The notes under the pieces are model-generated. The model did not search any database. It was given only the letters and a program-made list of their open reading frames with translations, and was not told the DNA's origin. Positions 39,840 through 51,338 of a stretch of 64,000 bases of DNA are shown piece after piece. Numbering within the stretch: the stretch's first letter is position 1; every line of letters begins with the position of its first letter. This stretch comes from Pseudomonadota bacterium (GTDB lineage: Bacteria; Desulfobacterota; Binatia; Binatales; Binataceae). The stretch is from the NCBI GenBank assembly GCA_021323675.1, contig JAJPKP010000017.1, positions 1 to 64,000 on the forward strand, in the 5' to 3' direction. The position numbers and the translations under genes are program-made.

Positions 39840-40667
39840 ATGATCGTCACTACCCGCTTGCCAGTGAAACGGATGCGCTCCGACAGCGAATTTTCCTATC
39901 GATGCAACTCCTGCGGGCGATGCTGCCGCGACAAGGTGATTACGCTGGCGCCATACGACGTGCTGACCATCGCGCGGGCGGCTGGAATCACCACCGCCGA
40001 CGCCGTCGCGCGATTCACCATCCGGCGCGGCTCGATACTGCGCTTTGACGCCGACGGCGCGTGCGCGGCGCTGGATGGTCCCCGATGCGGACTGCATCGC
40101 GGACGGCCGCTCGCCTGCCGGCTGTACCCGCTCGGAATCGAGCGCGACTTCGACACGCCGGCGCAATACTTCATCGAACTCGAACCGGCGCCGGGCTCCG
40201 AAGGCGTTTATGGAAACGACGGAACGGTCGCGGGCTTTCTTGATGCCCAGGGCGTGCCGGAATATCTCGCGATGAACGACCGCTACCGGCCGCTGCTCGC
40301 GATCTTTCGCCAGCGTATCGGCGAGCTGGTTGATTTTGAAACCATCGAGCCGCGCGAGTTCTGGCGCGTCGCCGCCCGCGAGGCGCTTTCCGAATCAGGC
40401 TACGACGCCAACGAGCTGATCGATGCGCTGTTCGATGCGGATCGCTTCGCGGATGCGCATGAGGACGTTGAGGACGCGGTCTCGCGCCACGTCGAAGCGC
40501 TCGCGGCGATGGCGCGTGGCTGCCGCGATGCTCGCGCGCTCGGCGCCGCCGCAGTGATGCTCGCGGTCAGCCTGGGATATTCGCCTTCAGCCGCATGCCT
40601 GGCCGGCGAAGAGATCGGGGAAAAAAATCGCGCGGCGGCGAAGCGAAACGATCATTCGATCCCGTAG
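39840..40667 (+). CDS. YkgJ-type cysteine-cluster protein
   Basis: About 275 residues with the YkgJ/Fli cysteine-cluster pattern: YRCNSCGRCCRDKVI near the N-terminus and CAALDGPRCGLHRGRPLACRLYPLGIERD further on, eight cysteines that could hold a zinc or iron-sulfur site. Members are linked to metal binding or to methylation of partner proteins, with no firm function. ATG 39840 is used; ATG 39873 is an alternative that gives a more compact N-terminus. The last 16 bases overlap the end of the convergent response-regulator gene. Confidence 0.8.
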   Translation: MIVTTRLPVKRMRSDSEFSYRCNSCGRCCRDKVITLAPYDVLTIARAAGITTADAVARFTIRRGSILRFDADGACAALDGPRCGLHRGRPLACRLYPLGIERDFDTPAQYFIELEPAPGSEGVYGNDGTVAGFLDAQGVPEYLAMNDRYRPLLAIFRQRIGELVDFETIEPREFWRVAAREALSESGYDANELIDALFDADRFADAHEDVEDAVSRHVEALAAMARGCRDARALGAAAVMLAVSLGYSPSAACLAGEEIGEKNRAAAKRNDHSIP

Positions 40668-41986
40668 CGCTTGCGCTTGCGCCAGAGCGTGGTCACGTTG
40701 ATGCCGAGGGTGGCGGCGGCCTCCTCGAGCGTCGCGGTCTCGGCAAGCACCCGGCGGATATGCTCGCGCTCGAGTTCTTCGAGGCTGGCCGCATGGTGCG
40801 CATCCGGCGCGCCGGCTTCCGATGTTTCGCGAAACAGAGCATCGGGCAGGTCCTCGCGGCTGATGACGTCGCTGCGGCTAAGCACGGCCGCGCGTTCGAG
40901 AGCATTGCGCAACTCGCGCGCGTTGCCGGGCCATCGGTACTTCGAGATCGCCGCCGCCGCCTCGGGCGATAACTGCATCTTTCCACGCCCGTTGCGAATC
41001 GCCGCCGCCCGCAGCATCCACTCCGCCAGCGGCAGAAGGTCCTCGTGGCGTTCACGCAGCGCCGGGACGCGCAGCGTGATCACATTGAGGCGATGGAACA
41101 GGTCTTCGCGAAAGTGGCGCTGCGCGACTTCCGCTTCCAGATCGCGGTTGGAAGCGGCGATGATGCGGGTATCGACGCGGATGACGGCATCGCTGCCGAT
41201 GCGCTCGAAGCTCTGCTCCTGAACAAAGCGCAGAAACTTGGCCTGCAGTCTCGGGCTCAAGTCCGCGATTTCGTCGAGAAACACGGTCCCCTTGTCGGCG
41301 GCCTCCAGCCGTCCGGGCTTGTCCTTGACCGCGCCCGTGAAGGAACCGCGCACATGGCCGAACAACTCGCTCTCGAGCAGCTCCTCGGACAGCGTGGTGC
41401 AGTTCACGACCACGAACGGTCCCGCGGATCGCCGGCTCCATCGATGAATTTGGCGGGCGAGAACGTTTTTTCCCGTGCCGCTTTCGCCGGTCAGCAGGAT
41501 AGTCGCGTCGCTCTGCGCGGCCTGGCGCGCAAGGTCGAACAGATGCTTCATCACGGGGCTGCGCGATTCGAGCATCGGCGCGTCGTCGATGGTTTCGCGC
41601 AATGCCCGGTTCTCGGCTTGCAGGCCGCTCAGTTCGAGCGCGCGCTCGACGGTGTGCTGGATCTGATCGAGCGAGAAAGGCTTGGTTACATAGTCATACG
41701 CGCCCGCCTTCATCGCGGCGACCGCGTTTTCCACCGTCGCATAGGCGGTCATCAGGATCACCAGGCATCCGGGCTGCCGGCGCCGGGCTTCGGCGAGCAG
41801 TTCGAGGCCGTTGAGCTCCGCCATCCTGTAGTCCGTGAGCATCAGGTCGAACGGCTCGGCGGCGATAAGCTTCGCCGCTTGCGGTCCTCCCTCGGCGGAG
41901 ACGACCGTATGGCCCAGCGACTGGAAAAAACGCTCCAGGCTGCGCCGGATGTTTCGCTCGTCATCGACGATAAGCAGTTTTGCCAT
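40652..41986 (-). CDS. NtrC-family sigma-54-dependent response regulator
   Basis: A 444-residue enhancer-binding protein: receiver domain with phospho-acceptor Asp52 and Lys102, AAA+ sigma-54 activation domain with Walker A GESGTGK (167-173), sigma-54 contact loop GSFTGA (214-219, the usual GAFTGA with Ser for Ala), Walker B GTVFLDEI (233-240), and a Fis-type helix-turn-helix at the C-terminus (LEEAAATLGINVTTLWRKRKRY). It activates promoters read by sigma-54 polymerase. It is the last gene of the kdp run, one base overlapping the kinase gene, in the position normally held by the OmpR-type KdpE. Confidence 0.92.
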   Translation of the reverse strand: MAKLLIVDDERNIRRSLERFFQSLGHTVVSAEGGPQAAKLIAAEPFDLMLTDYRMAELNGLELLAEARRRQPGCLVILMTAYATVENAVAAMKAGAYDYVTKPFSLDQIQHTVERALELSGLQAENRALRETIDDAPMLESRSPVMKHLFDLARQAAQSDATILLTGESGTGKNVLARQIHRWSRRSAGPFVVVNCTTLSEELLESELFGHVRGSFTGAVKDKPGRLEAADKGTVFLDEIADLSPRLQAKFLRFVQEQSFERIGSDAVIRVDTRIIAASNRDLEAEVAQRHFREDLFHRLNVITLRVPALRERHEDLLPLAEWMLRAAAIRNGRGKMQLSPEAAAAISKYRWPGNARELRNALERAAVLSRSDVISREDLPDALFRETSEAGAPDAHHAASLEELEREHIRRVLAETATLEEAAATLGINVTTLWRKRKRYGIE

Positions 41987-43773
41987 CAGTTCATTGGCGT
42001 GCAGGGCAGTTCGACCACGAATCTGCTGCCCGCACCCACCTCGCTTTCAACGTAGATTCTGCCGCCATGGGCGGCCACGATGTCTTTTGCGATCGCCAAT
42101 CCCAGGCCGGCGGATCCCTTCTCGAGGCCGCCGGTCGGGTACTGCGCGAATCTTTCGAAGATGTGGTCCCGTATCGCGCGCGGGATGCCGGGGCCGGAGT
42201 CCGCGACTTCCAGCCGCACGTGGCCATCGACCGGGCGCGCGGCGATGTCGATTTTGCCGCCCGAGGGAGTGTAGCGCAGCGCGTTGCCGACCAGGTTGGA
42301 GACAACCCACGAGAGCTTGACCGAATCTCCCGAGATTTCAGGCAACGGCTCAAGGTGCTGCTCGAGGTGAATCTCGCGTTCGCGAGCCTGCAAGCCGAAG
42401 CGATGGACGACCTCTTCGATAATCTCGCGAAGGTCGAGCCGCTCGCGGTTTACCGCGATCGCCGCCATCTCCCCGCGCGCCAGCTTGAGCAGATTGTCGC
42501 TGAGCAGCTTGATGCGCGCGCATTCGTCGAGGATCGCCTCGAGCAGCTCGCGCTGGCGCGGCGTAAAGCCCTCCGCGTCGCGCCTGAGCAGCTCCGCGGA
42601 CAATGCCAGCGAGGTCAGCGGCGTTCTGAGTTCGTGCGAGAGAGTCGCGACCAGATTGGCCCGAGCACGATCCTGATCGCGCAGATAGGTCACGTCCTGA
42701 AGGATCAGGATCGTTCCCAGCATCACGTCCTTCTCGTGCCGGAGCGGAGTGGGTTTCAGCAGGTAGGAGTGATCGCGCCCGCGCACGTGAAGCTGGACCT
42801 CGACGCGGCTTTCTTCGCGGCCGCTGCGGTTGAGGCTCCGGAGCGCATCACGAACGCGGAGATAGTGCGGATGATTGCTGCTCAGGTCATCGAAGGGACT
42901 GCCCAGCGCATCCTTGGGCTCGACACCGAGGATCAGCGCGGCGATTTCATTAATATGCGCGACGATTCCGTCGGAATCGATCAGGACGACGCCGTCCTCG
43001 AGGCTTTCGATAATCGCCTCGGTCCGGCTCTTTTCGTACATCAGGCGCTCGACGTTGAGTTTCTCGAATTGTTCGAGCCGCTCCGCCATCTGATTGAATT
43101 CGCGCGCAACCGCCTGCAATTCCGCCAGCCTCTGATTGCCAAGCCGCATCTGGGATCGGCGCTGGCCGACTCCGCGCAGGCGCTCGGTCAATTCGGTCAG
43201 CGGGCGCGCGATGGCCCATCCGAGCCCCCACGCCATCGCGATTCCGAGAATCAGGACCACGGCGAGACCGATGGCGAACTGGTAGGTAAGCCCGCGGCCG
43301 AGCCGTGCGGAGCGGCTGTTGGCGCGGAACATCGCGTCGCGATTCATCCGGATGAGGTCGTCGATACGGTCGTGAAGCTCCCGGAATTCTTCGTCGTGAC
43401 GCGTCTGGGCGGGATGGGTGGCGATGTCGCTGAAAAGCTTGTTCGCGCGGGACTGGATGTCCCGAGCCAACTCGGGCTCGCCGATCTCGGTGTAATTGTG
43501 ATTCTCGACGTCCATCCAGCGCATGAACTCCGACTGCTCGCCCGCAAGGATTTCCTTCGCCTTGCCGTCGCGCTCGGCCAGTTGCAGATCGCGGAGCACG
43601 GCATGCAGATGCTGGGCAACCTCGATGCTCATGTAGTTGCGATAGAGAGTTTCGCGGATGGCGCCGCCAAGCCGGTAGACGCGCGGCAGGGCGTAAATCC
43701 CGAGGATCATGACTACCCCGAGAAGCAGCAGGCTTCCGTTGCGAATCCTGCTTCTGAGCGACGGCGTGCTCAT
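41986..43773 (-). CDS. membrane sensor histidine kinase with HAMP and PAS domains
   Basis: A 595-residue kinase. Two membrane helices (about 13-31 and 165-188) flank a periplasmic helical domain; then come HAMP (190-240), a PAS domain (about 250-362, TEAIIESLEDGVVLIDSDGIVAHINEIAALILG), the H-box with His380 (ATLSHELRTPLTSL), N-box NLVGNALRYTPSGG, and glycine-rich DSGPGIP and GSAGLGLAI. The gene overlaps the regulator by one base and the short KdpD gene by four, so the three are translated together. It is not the KdpD kinase domain; it has its own sensor and should phosphorylate the NtrC-type regulator. Confidence 0.9.
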   Translation of the reverse strand: MSTPSLRSRIRNGSLLLLGVVMILGIYALPRVYRLGGAIRETLYRNYMSIEVAQHLHAVLRDLQLAERDGKAKEILAGEQSEFMRWMDVENHNYTEIGEPELARDIQSRANKLFSDIATHPAQTRHDEEFRELHDRIDDLIRMNRDAMFRANSRSARLGRGLTYQFAIGLAVVLILGIAMAWGLGWAIARPLTELTERLRGVGQRRSQMRLGNQRLAELQAVAREFNQMAERLEQFEKLNVERLMYEKSRTEAIIESLEDGVVLIDSDGIVAHINEIAALILGVEPKDALGSPFDDLSSNHPHYLRVRDALRSLNRSGREESRVEVQLHVRGRDHSYLLKPTPLRHEKDVMLGTILILQDVTYLRDQDRARANLVATLSHELRTPLTSLALSAELLRRDAEGFTPRQRELLEAILDECARIKLLSDNLLKLARGEMAAIAVNRERLDLREIIEEVVHRFGLQAREREIHLEQHLEPLPEISGDSVKLSWVVSNLVGNALRYTPSGGKIDIAARPVDGHVRLEVADSGPGIPRAIRDHIFERFAQYPTGGLEKGSAGLGLAIAKDIVAAHGGRIYVESEVGAGSRFVVELPCTPMN

Positions 43774-44939
43774 GGCTGCTCCTCGCCCGTGTAGTCGGCG
43801 ACAATTTCGACGTCGATGTCGCGGGCCTCTTTAAGCAGGCGCATCGGGACATTGCCGCGGAGCATTCGCCTCCACCAGGGCTGATGGGTTCGGCCGACGA
43901 TGATCCTGGTGATGCCGTTGTCGCGCGCGTACTCGAGCATCGCCTTCACGACGTCGGACGATTGCAGCCACACGGTTTCCGCGCCGAGGTCGCCGGCGAG
44001 ATTGATGTTGTCGAGCAGGGTCACGAAATCGCGCGTGCGGATTTTCTTCACCGACTCCGAAGGAGTTTCGATGTGGACCGCGTACCAGTCGGCGCTGAGT
44101 TGCTCCGCGATTCTCGAAGCTTTGCGCAGCAGTCCGCCGCTCTCCGCCGGGTTCGAGGACAACCCGACCATGATTCGCTCGACCACCCGCGGGCGCAGTC
44201 CGCCTTCGCGCTTGACCGCCTCGGCATCGCGCCGCTGCCGGGTCAGCCCGCGGGCGACCTCGCGCAACGCCGCCTCGCGCAGCGAAGCGAGGTTGCTGGG
44301 CTTGAAAAAATTGCGCAGCGCCTGTTCCACCTGGTGAAGCGGATAGATCTTCCCCTGGCGCAGGCGCTCGCGCAGCGCCTCCACCGATACGTCGACATCG
44401 ACCACCTGATCCGCCCGCGCGATAAACGTATCGGGCACGGTCTCGCGCACTTCGATCCCGGTGACGCGCTTCATCAGCGGGCCCAGGCTCTCGATGTGCT
44501 GGATGTTGAGCGCGGTGATTACGTTGATTCCCGCCTGCACCAGCTCTTCCACGTCCTGGTAGCGGCGCTCGTGCTTCGAGCCGGGCACGTTGGTATGCGC
44601 CAGCTCATCGACGATCACGACTTCGGGACGCCGCGCCAGAATCGCATCCACATCCATCTCTTCCAGCTCGACTCCGCGATAGGAAATTCTGCGGCGCGGC
44701 ACGATTTCGAGGTCGCCGACTTTGCGATCGGTCTCGACTCGGCCGTGGGTTTCGATGAACCCGAGGACCACATCCACGCCCCGGTCGCGAAGCTCGTGCG
44801 CCTCTTCGAGCATCCGGTAGGTCTTGCCCACTCCCGCGGCGGGGCCGATGTAAATCTTGAGCCTGCCCTTTTGACCCCTGGGCTCAAGGTCCAGAAACGA
44901 TTCCGGTTCCGGACGACGCTCGTCGGAAATCGACGCCAA
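43770..44939 (-). CDS. kdpD: short KdpD: KdpD sensor plus universal-stress domain, no kinase
   Basis: About 389 residues containing only the KdpD N-terminal sensor domain (about 25-235: Walker A GPAAGVGKT at 32-40, THGRVET, VIVDELAHTNVPGS) and a universal-stress-like domain (about 255-385: RIMVGLSSNPAESGGLLRKASRIAEQL and ITRIIVGRTHQPWW). The four-helix, GAF and histidine-kinase regions of full KdpD (close to 900 residues) are absent. TTG 44939 with GGAGG six bases upstream is chosen; the upstream frame is arginine-rich and not conserved-looking. It may act as a cytosolic potassium or c-di-AMP sensor working with the separate kinase. Confidence 0.88.
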   Translation of the reverse strand: MASISDERRPEPESFLDLEPRGQKGRLKIYIGPAAGVGKTYRMLEEAHELRDRGVDVVLGFIETHGRVETDRKVGDLEIVPRRRISYRGVELEEMDVDAILARRPEVVIVDELAHTNVPGSKHERRYQDVEELVQAGINVITALNIQHIESLGPLMKRVTGIEVRETVPDTFIARADQVVDVDVSVEALRERLRQGKIYPLHQVEQALRNFFKPSNLASLREAALREVARGLTRQRRDAEAVKREGGLRPRVVERIMVGLSSNPAESGGLLRKASRIAEQLSADWYAVHIETPSESVKKIRTRDFVTLLDNINLAGDLGAETVWLQSSDVVKAMLEYARDNGITRIIVGRTHQPWWRRMLRGNVPMRLLKEARDIDVEIVADYTGEEQP

Positions 44940-44941
44940 GG

Positions 44942-45232
44942 TTATCCTCCGCGGCGGCGGGGCATCGCGTGAAGCACCGGATGGCGTCCGCCGGCCGACA
45001 GCCCGCGGAGCGGAGAGCGGCGCGGCGACCTCGCGCGAGCGCCAGGCTCGCCGTGCTTGCGGGAGGCAAGAATCGAGCTCATCGCGCGCACGCCTAAAAC
45101 CAGTGCCGCAAGCGCGATCAGTAGTTGGCCAATCGGCGGCAAACTCCCGGCTCCGGCCGGGGCAAGGTGATGCGGACGCGGGTTTACGACGATGGCGAAT
45201 TCGCGTACGACGCGGTTGTCTGCCCTGAACAT
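44942..45232 (-). CDS. possible small membrane protein between kdpC and kdpD
   Basis: A 96-codon frame fills the 345-bp gap between kdpC and the short kdpD. One hydrophobic stretch, IGQLLIALAALVLGVRAM, could span the membrane; the rest is arginine- and proline-rich. Its TAA ends two bases before the kdpD TTG, a spacing that would suit coupling, but GGGAG touches the ATG directly, which is poor. I rate it as possible only. Confidence 0.35.
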   Translation of the reverse strand: MFRADNRVVREFAIVVNPRPHHLAPAGAGSLPPIGQLLIALAALVLGVRAMSSILASRKHGEPGARARSPRRSPLRGLSAGGRHPVLHAMPRRRGG

Positions 45233-45283
45233 CTCCCTTCACCCGGCCGCAGCCGGCCTTCGCCCCCATGCTCCGGCTCGATG

Positions 45284-45865
45284 CTAATTGCGGGCCGCGA
45301 GATCATCGAGCGCAAGATTGAGCATCAGCACATTCACCCCCGGCTCGCCAATCACGCCGAGCCACCTGCCCCTGGTGTTTTCCCGCACCAGCCTTTCAAC
45401 TACATCTTGGCGCAGACCGCGAGCGCTGGCGACCCGTGCAACTTGCATCTCGGCGGCGGCGGGACTGATCTCGGGGTCAAGGCCGCTGCCCGAGGCGGTC
45501 ACCAGGTCGATAGGAACCCGGCTCGGCGAAGATCCGGGATCGGTTTCGAGCACGGCCCTGAGCCGCCTGCGAACGGTGTCGATGAGGACCTTGTTGGTGG
45601 GCCCCAGGTTGGAACCGCTCGAACTGGTTGCGTCGTAACCCTTGTCGCCAGCGGCGGACGGACGCCCATGGAAATAGCGCGCGGCGGAGAAATTCTGTCC
45701 GATCAGCTCGGAACCCGCGACGCGGCCGCCGCGCATCACCAGGCTTCCGGCGCTTTGCCATGGAAACAGCAGCCGCGCCGCGCCCGCGATCGCGAGCGGG
45801 TAGATGATTCCGGTCAGCACCGTCAGCACGAGGGTCATCCGGATCGCAACAAATAGTGAACGCAT
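45284..45865 (-). CDS. kdpC: potassium-transporting ATPase KdpC subunit
   Basis: A 193-residue single-helix subunit of the KdpFABC pump. Seen: TLVLTVLTGIIYPLAIAGAARLLFPWQSAGSLV (membrane helix and following loop), ELIGQNFSAARYFHGRPSAAGDKGYDATSSSGSNLGPTNKVLID, and VPIDLVTASGSGLDPEISPAAAEMQVARVASARGL, the family's most conserved block. KdpC raises ATP affinity of KdpB. The gene begins 9 bp after kdpB stops. Confidence 0.95.
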   Translation of the reverse strand: MRSLFVAIRMTLVLTVLTGIIYPLAIAGAARLLFPWQSAGSLVMRGGRVAGSELIGQNFSAARYFHGRPSAAGDKGYDATSSSGSNLGPTNKVLIDTVRRRLRAVLETDPGSSPSRVPIDLVTASGSGLDPEISPAAAEMQVARVASARGLRQDVVERLVRENTRGRWLGVIGEPGVNVLMLNLALDDLAARN

Positions 45866-45874
45866 GCGCTACTC

Positions 45875-47914
45875 CTAGGCGAGGTGGGCCGCCGTCACCA
45901 GCACGTCGATGATCTTGATCCCGATGAACGGAACGATGACCCCGCCGACCCCGTAGATCAGCAGATTGCGCGAGAGGATGGCCGCGGCGCCGAGCGGGCG
46001 ATATTGCACGCCGCGCAAGGCGAGCGGGATCAGCGCGATGATGATCAACGCGTTGAAAATCACCGCGGACAGAATCGCGCTTTGCGGCGTGGCCAGGTGC
46101 ATGATGTTGAGGGCCTGCAGCTCCGGATAGCCCACCACGAACATCGCCGGGATGATCGCGAAGTACTTCGCAACGTCGTTCGCGATCGAGAAGGTGGTGA
46201 GCGCGCCGCGGGTGATGAGAAGCTGTTTGCCGATCTCGACGACCTCCATGATCTTGGTCGGATTCGAGTCGAGATCGATCATGTTGCCGGCCTCGCGCGC
46301 CGCCTGGGTCCCCGCGTTCATCGCGATTCCCACGTCCGCCTGCGCCAGCGCGGGAGCATCGTTGGTCCCGTCGCCGATCATCGCGACCAGCTTCCCCTGG
46401 CTCTGCTCTTCCCGGATGATCTTGAGCTTGGTTTCGGGAGTGGCCTGCGCGACAAAATCGTTGACGCCGGACTCGCGGGCGATTGCGGCGGCGGTGAGCG
46501 GATTGTCGCCGGTGATCATCACCGTTCGCAGCCCCATCGCGTGGAGCCGCGCGAATCTTTCGCGGATGCCGTCCTTGATGACGTCCTTCAGATAGATAAC
46601 GCCCAGCACCCGCGCCTGGTCGGCAACGACCAGCGGAGTGCCGCCCGCGCGCGCGATTCGCTCGACCGCCGGATCGAGTTCGGGCGGTATGGCGCCGCCG
46701 TTCTGCCTTACGAATTCCGCGACCTGATCGCCGGCGCCCTTGCGGATGATCCGTCCGGGCAGGTCCACCCCGCTCATCCTGGTTTGCGCGGAGAACGGAA
46801 CGAAGGTGGCCTGCGCCTGGGACAAATCTCTGCCGCGAAGGTTGAACTGCCGCTTCGCCAGCACCACGATCGAACGGCCCTCCGGAGTTTCATCCGCAAG
46901 CGACGCGAGCTGCGCCGCATCGGCCAGCTCTTCGATCGCGACTCCCGGCATCGGAATAAACTCCGACGCCATCCGATCGCCGAGCGTGATGGTGCCGGTC
47001 TTGTCGAGCAGCAGGGTATCGACGTCGCCGGCCGCTTCCACCGCGCGCCCGGACATCGCCAGCACGTTGTGCCGCACCAGCCGATCCATCCCGGCAATGC
47101 CGATGGCGGAAAGGAGGCCGCCGATCGTCGTGGGTATAAGGCACACCAGCAGCGCGACCAGAACCGGCAGCGACAGCAGCGTTCCCGAATAGCGCGCGAA
47201 CGGAAAAAGGCTCACGCACACCAGCAGGAAGATGATCGTCAATCCGGAAAGCAGGATGCTCAGAGCTATCTCGTTGGGAGTTTTCTGGCGTTCGGCGCCT
47301 TCGACCAGCGCGATCATGCGGTCAAGGAAGGTTTCACCCGGGTTGGCCGAGATTCTGACCTTGATCCAGTCGGAAATGACGGTCGTGCCGCCCGTAACCG
47401 CGCTGCGGTCGCCGCCGCTCTCGCGGATCACCGGCGCCGATTCGCCGGTGATGGCCGCCTCGTTGACGGCGGCGACGCCTTCGATAACTTCGCCATCGCC
47501 GGGAATCACCTCGCCCGCCCGCACCATCACTACATCGCCTTTGCGCAGCGAGGTCGCGGGAACGCGCTGTTCCTGCCCGTCACGAATGACGCAGGCCTGG
47601 GTTTCGGTGCGGGTTCGGCGAAGATTGTCGGCCTGCGCCTTGCCGCGCCCCTCCGCCATCGCCTCCGCAAAATTGGCGAACGCCACGGTGAACCAGAGCC
47701 AGAGCGCGATCTGAAGCTCGAAGCCGGCCATTTCGCGGGTGCCGGCGATGAGGTTGCGCACCAGGATGACGGTTACGGCGAGCGCGGTGATCTCGACCAC
47801 GAACATGACCGGATTGCGCACCTGGACGCGGGGGTCGAACTTTCGGAGCGAATCGCCGATCGCGCCCACCACGATTTGGCGATCGAACAGCGAGGATGAC
47901 TTGCGGTCAGACAT
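45875..47914 (-). CDS. kdpB: potassium-transporting ATPase KdpB subunit (P-type ATPase)
   Basis: A 679-residue P-type ATPase, the energy-coupling subunit. Seen: [25 protein letters not shown] (actuator TGES), the phosphorylation motif [28 protein letters not shown], and the hinge [47 protein letters not shown] 47914 ([13 protein letters not shown]) was chosen because length then matches KdpB and AAAGGG lies upstream; the frame extends 24 codons further without similarity. The gene starts 16 bp after kdpA stops. Confidence 0.95.
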
Positions 47915-47930: not shown

Positions 47931-49658
47931 TCAGTAGAGCTTGCCGGAGTAGAGCGCCAGGTGCTCGACGATCGGTCCGAGCGCATCGGCGGGAAAGAAC
48001 GTGAGCGCGGCGACGATCAGGATCACCCCGACCAGCAGCGCGACGAAGACCGCGCCGTTGGTTGGAAAAGTTCCGGCGCTCGGAGGGATGGACTTTTTGG
48101 CGCCGAGCGATCCCGCCAGCGCCAGCGCCGGAATCTTCATCATGAAGCGCCCGAACAGCATCGCGAACGCGAGCGTGTAGTTGTAGAAAACCGAGTTGGC
48201 GGACAGTCCCGCGAGCGCGGACCCGTTGTTGGCTGCCGCCGAGGTGTACGCATAGAAAATCTGCGAAAAACCGTGCGGCCCCGGATTCGAGATTCCCGCC
48301 AGTCCCGCCTTGACGCACACCGCCGCCATCGCTCCCAGCAGAATCACAGCCGGAAAGATCAGCACGTAAAACATCGCGAGCTTCATCTCGCGCGCCTCGA
48401 TCTTCTTGCCCAGGTACTCGGGCGTCCTGCCCACCATCAGGCCCGCAACGAACACCGCCAGCACCGCCATCACCAGCATCCCATAGAGGCCCGAGCCGAC
48501 GCCGCCGAAGATGATCTCTCCAATTTGCATATTGAGGAGCGGCACGAATCCGCCGAGCGGCGTGAAGCTGTCATGCATTCCATTGACCGCGCCGCAGGAA
48601 GCGTCGGTGGTGACGGTCGCGAAGAGCGCGGTGTCCACGATTCCGAACCGGACTTCCTTGCCCTCCATGTTGCCGCCGCTCTGCGATGCGGTCGCATGCT
48701 GATTCAGCCCCATCGCCGAGAACTGCGGATTGCCGCGTTGTTCGGCCCAGATCGAGACGCCTGCGCCCGCCACGAACAGCAGCGTCATCGCGGCAAACAG
48801 CGCCCATCCCTGGCGGCGGTCTCCCGCCATCGCGCCGAAGGTGTGGGTCAGCCCGGCGCTGATCACGAAGATCGCGATCATTTCAATCAGGTTGGTCAGC
48901 GGCGTTGGATTCTCATAAGGATGGGCCGAATTGGCGTTGAAGAAGCCGCCCCCGTTGGTTCCCAGTTCCTTGATTATTTCCTGCGATGCGATCGGTCCTT
49001 GCGGAATGATCTGTTCCGCTCCTTCGAGCGTCCTTGCATGGACGTAGGGATCGAAATTCTGCGGAACTCCCTGCCAAACAAGCACCAGGGCGAAGACGAT
49101 ACATAGGGGCAGCAGCACCCAAAGAGTCGCGCGGACGAGATCGAACCAGAAATTGCCGATGGTTCGCGCGCTGCGCCGCACAAAACCGCGAATCACCGCC
49201 ACTGCCACAGCTATTCCCGCGGCGGCGGACACGAAGTTGTGGAACGCAAGGCCCGCCATCTGGGTCAGGTAGCTCACCGTGGTTTCGCCGGCGTAAGCCT
49301 GCCAGTTGGTGTTGGTGGTGAAGCTGGCCGCGGTATTGAAAGCCAGATCGGGCGCGATGCCCGCAAGGCCTTGTGGATTGAAAGGCAGCACGCCTTGCAA
49401 GCGTTCCATTCCGTACAGCAGCAGCATCCCGGCCGCGCTGAACAGGAGCATCGCGATTGCGTACTCGGACCACGCCATCTCGGTCGCGGGACGAATGCCG
49501 CAAAGGCGATAGATAGCGCGCTCAATCGGACACAGAACGGGGTCCAGGAAGGTCTTTTGACCGCTGAACACCCGCGACATGTAGAGGCCGACCGGAACGC
49601 TCAGCAGCGTAACGAGCGCAAAGAAGATTCCTACCTGGAAAATTGCATTCCAGAGCAT
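47931..49658 (-). CDS. kdpA: potassium-transporting ATPase KdpA subunit (channel-like)
   Basis: A 575-residue ten-helix protein related to K+ channels. The four selectivity-filter-like pieces are visible: [54 protein letters not shown] and [14 protein letters not shown]. It starts [13 protein letters not shown] and binds potassium on the periplasmic side with micromolar affinity in known homologues. It follows kdpF by 28 bp. Confidence 0.95.
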
Positions 49659-49686: not shown

Positions 49687-49779
49687 CTAGAACTTCTCCG
49701 GGCGAATCAGCGCATAGACCAGGTACGTGGTCAGGCTGACCGCGAGGATAATGCCGAGAAAAAGGTCGAAAGTGCTCAT
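49687..49779 (-). CDS. kdpF: KdpF, small subunit of the Kdp pump
   Basis: A 30-residue single-helix peptide: MSTFDLFLGIILAVSLTTY continuing to the typical KdpF ending Y-x-L-I-R-P-E-K-F. KdpF stabilises the KdpABC complex. It is far below usual gene-finding length but its position right before kdpA and its C-terminal LIRPEKF leave little doubt. AAAGG precedes the ATG closely. Its ATG overlaps the stop of a still smaller ORF. Confidence 0.88.
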   Translation of the reverse strand: MSTFDLFLGIILAVSLTTYLVYALIRPEKF

Positions 49780-49859
49780 ACCTTTAGACACGCGAGGACG
49801 TATCCGATAGCGACAGCGAAAAAGCCCACCGTAGCCGTGATTGCCGCCAGATCCTGCAT
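49776..49859 (-). CDS. tiny membrane protein at the head of the kdp operon
   Basis: A 27-residue frame (33 if read from ATG 49877) encoding one membrane helix: LAAITATVGFFAVAIGYVLAC-LKV. Its TGA overlaps the kdpF ATG (ATGA), strong evidence for coupled translation. Similar short hydrophobic ORFs ending in a G/A-Y-x-x-x-C motif commonly precede kdpF or kdpA in other bacteria, with no assigned role. The shorter start is preferred because the likely sigma-54 promoter overlaps the upstream ATG. Confidence 0.6.
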   Translation of the reverse strand: MQDLAAITATVGFFAVAIGYVLACLKV

Positions 49860-49872
49860 TGCAAAGAACAGC

Positions 49873-49888
49873 AGCATTGAGCATGCCA
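49873..49888 (-). promoter_or_regulatory. candidate sigma-54 promoter of the kdp operon
   Basis: On the minus strand TGGCATG-CTCA-ATGCT matches the -24/-12 sigma-54 consensus TGGCAYG-N4-TTGCW at every defined base but one, with invariant GG and GC exactly ten bases apart. It lies just upstream of the tiny ORF and kdpF. An NtrC-type regulator is encoded at the end of the same operon. Read by eye; experimental start not known. Confidence 0.6.
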
Positions 49889-50003
49889 GATTGAAAGGGA
49901 CAGGATCCGCCGCCGGTTCTCCCGCTTGCGATGTTTGTTCGTTTCAATTTGCACTACATCGACGATGCGACTTGCAGCCTTTGATTTCGGGCATGTTTCG
50001 TCG

Positions 50004-50022
50004 CTCTTTTCGCTCAAAAGAG
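50004..50022. promoter_or_regulatory. 19-bp palindrome, candidate enhancer site for the NtrC-type regulator
   Basis: CTCTTTT-CGCTC-AAAAGAG has perfect 7-bp arms. Its centre is about 150 bp upstream of the start predicted from the sigma-54-like promoter, the normal distance for an enhancer-binding protein. It also sits upstream of the divergent permease genes. Role is inferred from geometry. Confidence 0.5.
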
Positions 50023-50177: not shown

Positions 50178-51338
50178 ATGGTGCCGATTCGCTACAACCT
50201 TCGCAGCGTTCTCGAACGGCGCGGAACCTCGCTGATGACGATGCTTGGCGTCGCGCTGGTTTCGATGATCTTCGTCATCGTGTTCGGGTTTATCGCGGGC
50301 CTGAAGGAGTCTCTTCGCAATTCCGGCCAGGATCGAAACTGGATGGTGCTTGCGCGGGGCGTAACCAGCGAAAACGAAAGCTACGTCCCGCACGAAGCGA
50401 CGGAAGTGATCAGCGCGCGGCCGGAAATCGCGCTGGACGCCGATAACCATCCGCTGGTCTCGCGCGAGTCGATCGCGGGCGTGAACATCGCGCGCATCAG
50501 AGGCGCCAAGGAATTCGCGCTGCTCCGCGGGGTGGAACCGATCGCATACGAGCTCCATCCGAATCTGCGGCTGGTCGAAGGACGATGGCCGGAGCGCGGG
50601 AAGGGCGAATGGGCTGTCGGGCAGCGGCTGCTCGCGCGCTACCCGTACCTGAGCCCGGGCAGCACGTTTCACTACGGACATCACGACTGGCAGATCGTCG
50701 GGGTGTTCGGGGACCACGGCAGCGCGCGCGAGTCGGAAATCTGGACGAATCTTGACGATCTGATCAACGACCGGCATTGGTCGCCGGGCGGCGCCTCCGC
50801 GCTGCACCTGGTTTTGAGGGCGGGAACCTCGACTGAGTTTGCGCAGGCCTTGAAGGCCGACGGACGATTCACGCTCCAAACCGAGAGCGAAGGCGACTAC
50901 TACGCGGCACAGGCGAAGGTGGCCGCGCAATTGCGGACGCTCGGCCTCATCGTGGCGATTGCGCTGGCGATCGGCGCGACCTTCGGCGGGATGAACACGA
51001 TGTACACGGCGGTGAGCCGGCGCGGACGCGAGATCGGTGTTCTGCGAGTGCTCGGTTTTTCGCGCGCGGACATCCTCGGCAGCTTCGTCATCGAGAGTGC
51101 GATCCTCGCAATCGCGGGAGGCGCGGCCGGGATTGTCCTTGCCACCCTGGTCGCGTGGGTATCAGGGTTGGGCAGCCGCACGATGAGCATCGGCGCGATG
51201 TTCTTCTCGTACCGGGCGAGTCCGGGCGCGTTCGCCGCCGGCGTTGTTGTGGCGGCGATTATCGGGGTCGCGGGCGGACTGATGCCGGCGCTGCGCGCCT
51301 CGCGCATCGGCATCATCAACGCCCTCCGGGAGTCGTGA
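50178..51338 (+). CDS. FtsX/MacB-type ABC transporter permease
   Basis: A 386-residue permease with an N-terminal helix (SLMTMLGVALVSMIFVIVFGFIAGL), a large periplasmic MacB-like domain (about 60-255) and three C-terminal helices holding the signature RRGREIGVLRVLGFSRADILGSFVIESAILAIAGGAAGI. This type VII arrangement works by mechanotransmission, for lipoproteins, drugs or cell-wall signals. The second gene of the pair starts two bases after its stop. No ATPase gene is on either side. Confidence 0.88.
   Translation: MVPIRYNLRSVLERRGTSLMTMLGVALVSMIFVIVFGFIAGLKESLRNSGQDRNWMVLARGVTSENESYVPHEATEVISARPEIALDADNHPLVSRESIAGVNIARIRGAKEFALLRGVEPIAYELHPNLRLVEGRWPERGKGEWAVGQRLLARYPYLSPGSTFHYGHHDWQIVGVFGDHGSARESEIWTNLDDLINDRHWSPGGASALHLVLRAGTSTEFAQALKADGRFTLQTESEGDYYAAQAKVAAQLRTLGLIVAIALAIGATFGGMNTMYTAVSRRGREIGVLRVLGFSRADILGSFVIESAILAIAGGAAGIVLATLVAWVSGLGSRTMSIGAMFFSYRASPGAFAAGVVVAAIIGVAGGLMPALRASRIGIINALRES

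Follow-up and report, generated by a model that had tools for sequence, protein, structure and literature searches.

The window, the whole 64-kb stretch of Binataceae DNA that was analysed, carries a kdp operon on its minus strand in the order tiny ORF-kdpF-A-B-C. The genes that follow encode a KdpD without a kinase domain, a stand-alone histidine kinase and a regulator of the NtrC type. The features of this operon and of the region upstream are the following, in the direction of transcription:

50004..50022, no strand assigned: palindrome CTCTTTT-N5-AAAAGAG, present with perfect 7-bp arms, not conserved
49966..49976, minus strand: upstream dyad 1, TGCAAGTCGCA, differing from TGCA-N3-TGCA at one base (found by motif sampler and by position scan)
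49943..49953, minus strand: upstream dyad 2, TGCAAATTGAA, differing from TGCA-N3-TGCA at one base (found by motif sampler and by position scan)
49873..49888, minus strand: sigma-54-type promoter, TGGCATGCTCAATGCT, read from the sequence, with GG at 49887-49886 and GC at 49875-49874
49862..49862, minus strand: predicted transcription start (+1), placed by geometry 12 nt after the C of GC and uncertain by 1-3 nt
49776..49859, minus strand: 27-aa tiny ORF, MQDLAAITATVGFFAVAIGYVLACLKV, conserved in relatives, with its start codon at 49859-49857
49687..49779, minus strand: kdpF (Pfam PF09604, TIGR02115)
47931..49658, minus strand: kdpA (TIGR00680, PF03814)
45875..47914, minus strand: kdpB (open frame and homologous alignments; start set at the second ATG of the frame)
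45284..45865, minus strand: kdpC (open frame and homologous alignments)
43770..45269, minus strand: kinase-less KdpD with sensor and UspA domains (PF02702, PF00582; the real start lies inside the open frame)
41986..43773, minus strand: separate sensor histidine kinase with HAMP, PAS, HisKA and HATPase domains (Pfam)
40652..41986, minus strand: NtrC-like response regulator with receiver, sigma-54 AAA+ and Fis-type HTH domains (Pfam, PF00158)

Profile matches confirmed the enhancer-binding regulator that an earlier note on this DNA had placed at the end of the operon; the loop of its GAFTGA type reads GSFTGA in translation. KdpD has no kinase domain according to Pfam, and its match to the KdpD_non_kinase profile (NF038185) falls below the cut-off of that profile. 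The histidine kinase adjoins the regulator, beside the kdp genes, in most loci of the family, and the named records that match it are Candidatus Binataceae, Candidatus Binatus soli and MAGs labelled Deltaproteobacteria or Proteobacteria. At five loci from other Binatia families (L122, L128, L132, L136 and L138), a larger histidine kinase (open frame of approximately 1000 aa) lies between KdpD and the sigma-54 regulator of the kdp operon. At another locus (L069), relatives of the kdp histidine kinase and regulator are encoded with no kdpA within the 13 kb examined. The genome that contributed the window also encodes, on a different contig (C40, locus L121), another kdp operon, whose KdpA is very dissimilar (approximately 35-40% identity) and which has a 31-aa tiny ORF of its own, preceded by a Shine-Dalgarno sequence.

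In E. coli, kdpFABC is controlled by KdpE, which is of the OmpR type, and the kinase is part of KdpD itself. The Binataceae operon resembles this system in the two-component control of the same pump and in the sensor and UspA domains of KdpD, but its regulator is NtrC-like and its KdpD is devoid of a kinase domain, the kinase being a separate protein. A closer counterpart is found in Desulfovibrio vulgaris, where DVU3334 targets its own kdp operon and the kinase is split into DVU3336, a K+ sensor with a UspA domain, and DVU3335 (PMC3333781); there, as here, an NtrC-like regulator, a separate kinase and a kinase-less KdpD lie within the kdp operon. The D. vulgaris kdp operon is also listed in a sigma-54 regulome, the main text of which makes no mention of leaderless mRNA (PMC4641369). 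This precedent, with the same split KdpD, weakens the view of the earlier note that sigma-54 control of kdp is exceptional. In the parts of the report consulted, the kdp system of Deinococcus radiodurans likewise divides KdpD into a truncated N-terminal protein (kdpD-N) and a separate kinase, but the regulator and kinase reside in a separate, opposite operon and no sigma-54 control is described (PMC5716572). Control through sigma-54 of a kdp operon whose KdpD is divided is thus not new in kind; what is new is the variant described below, with its predicted near-leaderless start and its likely enhancer pair.

The -24/-12 element was located on the minus strand at 49888..49873, just before the tiny ORF and kdpF, and reads TGGCATG-CTCA-ATGCT, with exactly 10 bases between the GG and the GC (GG-N10-GC), precisely as the earlier note had it. 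Using a sigma-54 matrix that approximates the published consensus, this promoter was the sole match of at least 13.7 bits on either strand of the 64 kb. Its own genome contains 15 strict promoter matches, compared to 6 for a reversed control pattern, and among these 15 the paired dyads were found at kdp only. Short spacing between promoter and start codon was seen in this genome at kdp and at one further match within an 866-aa open frame. The genome also encodes rpoN (PF04552, E 3.7e-63). The classical sigma-54 consensus has a T before the GG (TGGCA); this T is present at the window promoter and variable among the relatives.

The GG-N10-GC core with a closely following tiny-ORF start is retained in 27 of the 33 family kdp loci with this type of KdpA, one of the 27 sites (L050) being found only by a looser GG-N10-GC rule near the start codon. 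All 27 loci share GGCA and TGC without exception, whereas variation is seen in the spacer of four bases and in the T ahead of GG. Counted from the T position, the tiny-ORF start codon is reached after 28-30 nt at 26 of the 27 and after 33 nt at the remaining one. Matrix scans that imposed no spacing rule also placed a site 211-239 bp ahead of kdpA in most family loci; across the 27, the distance between promoter and kdpA ranges from approximately 210 to 240 because the gap between kdpF and kdpA varies.

Six of the 33 comparable loci have no short spacing (L036-L038, L118, L112 and L113). With L112, the site is approximately 78 nt away and a Shine-Dalgarno sequence (GAGG) is present; with L113, no promoter site was found upstream of kdp; and with L036-L038, which belong to genus g15, the site lies 157-222 nt upstream. 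In addition to this sigma-54 site far upstream of the tiny ORF, genus g15 (L036, L037, L038 and L039) has a conserved leader stretch ending ..GTCGCTCCGAACTGCGTCCGCACTAACAA.. that is common to two unlike kdp operons; its long kdp leaders gave no match to known RNA families in Rfam. No fitting site was seen at the second kdp copies in which KdpA is more divergent (L056, L064, L119 and L120). The promoter is also retained in other Binatia families, where the tiny ORF lies 40-75 nt away, and at the shortest of these distances (L136, 40 nt) the sequence AAAGGAG begins just past the predicted +1, a position that fits the assumed start rule.

Upstream of the promoter, a palindrome-limited Gibbs sampler returned TGCA-N3-TGCA-like sites with a score of 266, compared to 188-195 for shuffled sets. 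A position scan of the relatives recorded 54 near-matches between -115 and -45 against a shuffled mean of 0.7 and maximum of 4 (500 shuffles), and a single near-match between -300 and -130. Most loci possess two such dyads, 22-24 bp apart (23 bp in the window), and genus g15 and several further families of Binatia have similar dyads ahead of the promoter. The tandem TGCA-N3-TGCA pair is therefore the likely enhancer, as judged from the pattern of the sites. That role had previously been assigned to the palindrome at 50004-50022, whose perfect 7-bp arms and centre, approximately 150 bp from the predicted start, are as the earlier note described them. Despite its regular arms and plausible distance, the palindrome is scarcely credible as an enhancer, no counterpart having been found in a same-genus relative or at that place in the other family members. 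The intergenic region in which it lies, moreover, also serves a divergent FtsX/MacB-like permease gene (window 50178-51338, plus strand), whose promoter it may hold too, and the palindrome could belong to that gene. The scan of related genomes that the earlier note had suggested recovered the promoter core with its short spacing but not the palindrome. The sigma-54 circuit that it envisaged is strongly supported by the conservation of the core, the linked kinase and regulator, and rpoN, and needs correcting in the sequence taken as the enhancer.

What that note overlooked is the predicted near-zero leader. Transcription from a sigma-54 promoter of standard geometry starts approximately 12 nt after the GC, and in the window the start codon of the tiny ORF lies about 3 nt past the +1 so predicted. 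Setting +1 at 12 nt past the GC throughout, the predicted leader is 2-7 nt, and usually 3, in the 27 loci. The start codon is ATG in 24 of these and GTG in three, and the stop codon overlaps the start of kdpF as ATGA (GTGA once among the 27). No Shine-Dalgarno sequence was found ahead of the tiny ORF of the window. Within the family, Shine-Dalgarno-like 4-mers precede 5 of 27 tiny ORFs and 3 of 27 kdpF genes, compared to 17 of 20 kdpA genes and a background of 9%; in the other Binatia families, 11 of 13 tiny ORFs have one. A search for the 16S rRNA, for a check of the anti-Shine-Dalgarno sequence, found none in the genome's own assembly.

The 27-aa start was chosen on grounds of conservation. 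A longer tiny ORF from 49877 was rejected: its ATG, which overlaps the -12 element, lacks conservation, and in several relatives stop codons interrupt the frame before the 27-aa start is reached from the promoter. A C immediately before the start codon was considered as an initiation signature (21 of 27 tiny ORFs), but it is almost as frequent ahead of kdpA (15 of 20) and is thus no evidence for the start point. A tblastn search with the tiny ORF gave no match in plasmids, its 27 hydrophobic residues making such a search uninformative. Similar short hydrophobic peptides with a C-D-(R/K)-L end do occur directly before kdpF in Mycetohabitans and Azospirillum, and no short-spaced sigma-54 site was seen in the short stretches examined from these two. 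These Beta- and Alphaproteobacterial ORFs (L164:1008-1112 and L162:962-1087) are annotated as 'potassium ABC transporter ATPase' or 'hypothetical', and the start of the Azospirillum ORF looks to have been called too far upstream.

Several bacteria are known to make leaderless mRNAs (PMC3616915), and a search of the open-access literature found no paper linking a leaderless kdp mRNA to sigma-54. With E. coli, GTG is a poor start codon on leaderless mRNA (cited in PMC3616915), and the three loci with GTG count against a near-leaderless reading. Nevertheless, given the promoter geometry and the conserved spacing, we regard a near-leaderless start of the kdp message as fairly probable. An ordinary leader would be obtained if the sigma-54 promoter were real but RNA started from a second, undetected promoter farther upstream, or if the tiny ORF were weakly translated and kdpF and kdpA started independently. 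The Shine-Dalgarno sequence that kdpA has to itself and the long upstream distance at three genus g15 loci would both suit this alternative. It is nonetheless unlikely: the spacing stays constant at 28-30 nt in 26 of 27 loci though the intervening bases diverge, and kdpF overlaps the tiny-ORF stop and is devoid of a ribosome site in 24 of 27.

That the conserved GGCA-N7-TGC is instead a site for another protein, and not a sigma-54 promoter, is suggested by its partial dyad symmetry and by the inconstant T of TGG. This is very improbable in view of the exact GG-N10-GC, the presence of rpoN and of a linked sigma-54 activator, a pair of dyads as far from the promoter as enhancers usually are, and the parallel in Desulfovibrio. 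Control of kdp by sigma-54 and the linked regulator, as indicated by conservation of the -24/-12 core, the adjoining genes for a histidine kinase and an NtrC-like regulator, and rpoN, is in our judgement highly probable.

A model combining the sigma-54 circuit, the dyad enhancers, the near-leaderless tiny ORF and a coupled kdpF is proposed with good confidence. It builds on features that are evident in the DNA itself: the core of the promoter, the dyads, the constant spacing, the rarity of Shine-Dalgarno sequences and the order of the genes. Low potassium or osmotic stress, as the presumed signal, would be perceived by KdpD, which has no kinase domain, together with the separate histidine kinase; the latter, as the gene content suggests, would phosphorylate the NtrC-like regulator. 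The regulator may then bind the two dyads, which lie upstream of the -24 element at distances of approximately 65 and 88 bp, and activate the sigma-54 polymerase at 49888..49873. The RNA would begin approximately 12-15 nt after the GC, leaving 0-4 nt between its 5' end and the start of the 27-aa ORF, and the ribosome would thus load onto an almost leaderless end without a Shine-Dalgarno sequence. Devoid of its own ribosome site, kdpF would presumably be read by coupling through the ATGA overlap, and kdpA would be translated from its own site.

Expression of the emergency potassium pump of this uncultured soil family thus appears to be activated through sigma-54 together with an enhancer-binding regulator. 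This widens the range of sigma-54-controlled kdp operons beyond Desulfovibrio, to the uncultured class Binatia, and names a conserved, testable enhancer motif. The promoter probably lies so near the first tiny gene that almost no leader is left, an unusual arrangement conserved in the family. We lean toward the view that a whole family with a sigma-54 promoter makes this activator-controlled transcript leaderless or nearly so, and that its sister families retain that promoter together with a leader bearing a Shine-Dalgarno sequence, so that an enhancer-dependent gene would have moved to leaderless translation. Activator-dependent promoter and leaderless translation appear to be joined here, and the sister families provide natural controls.
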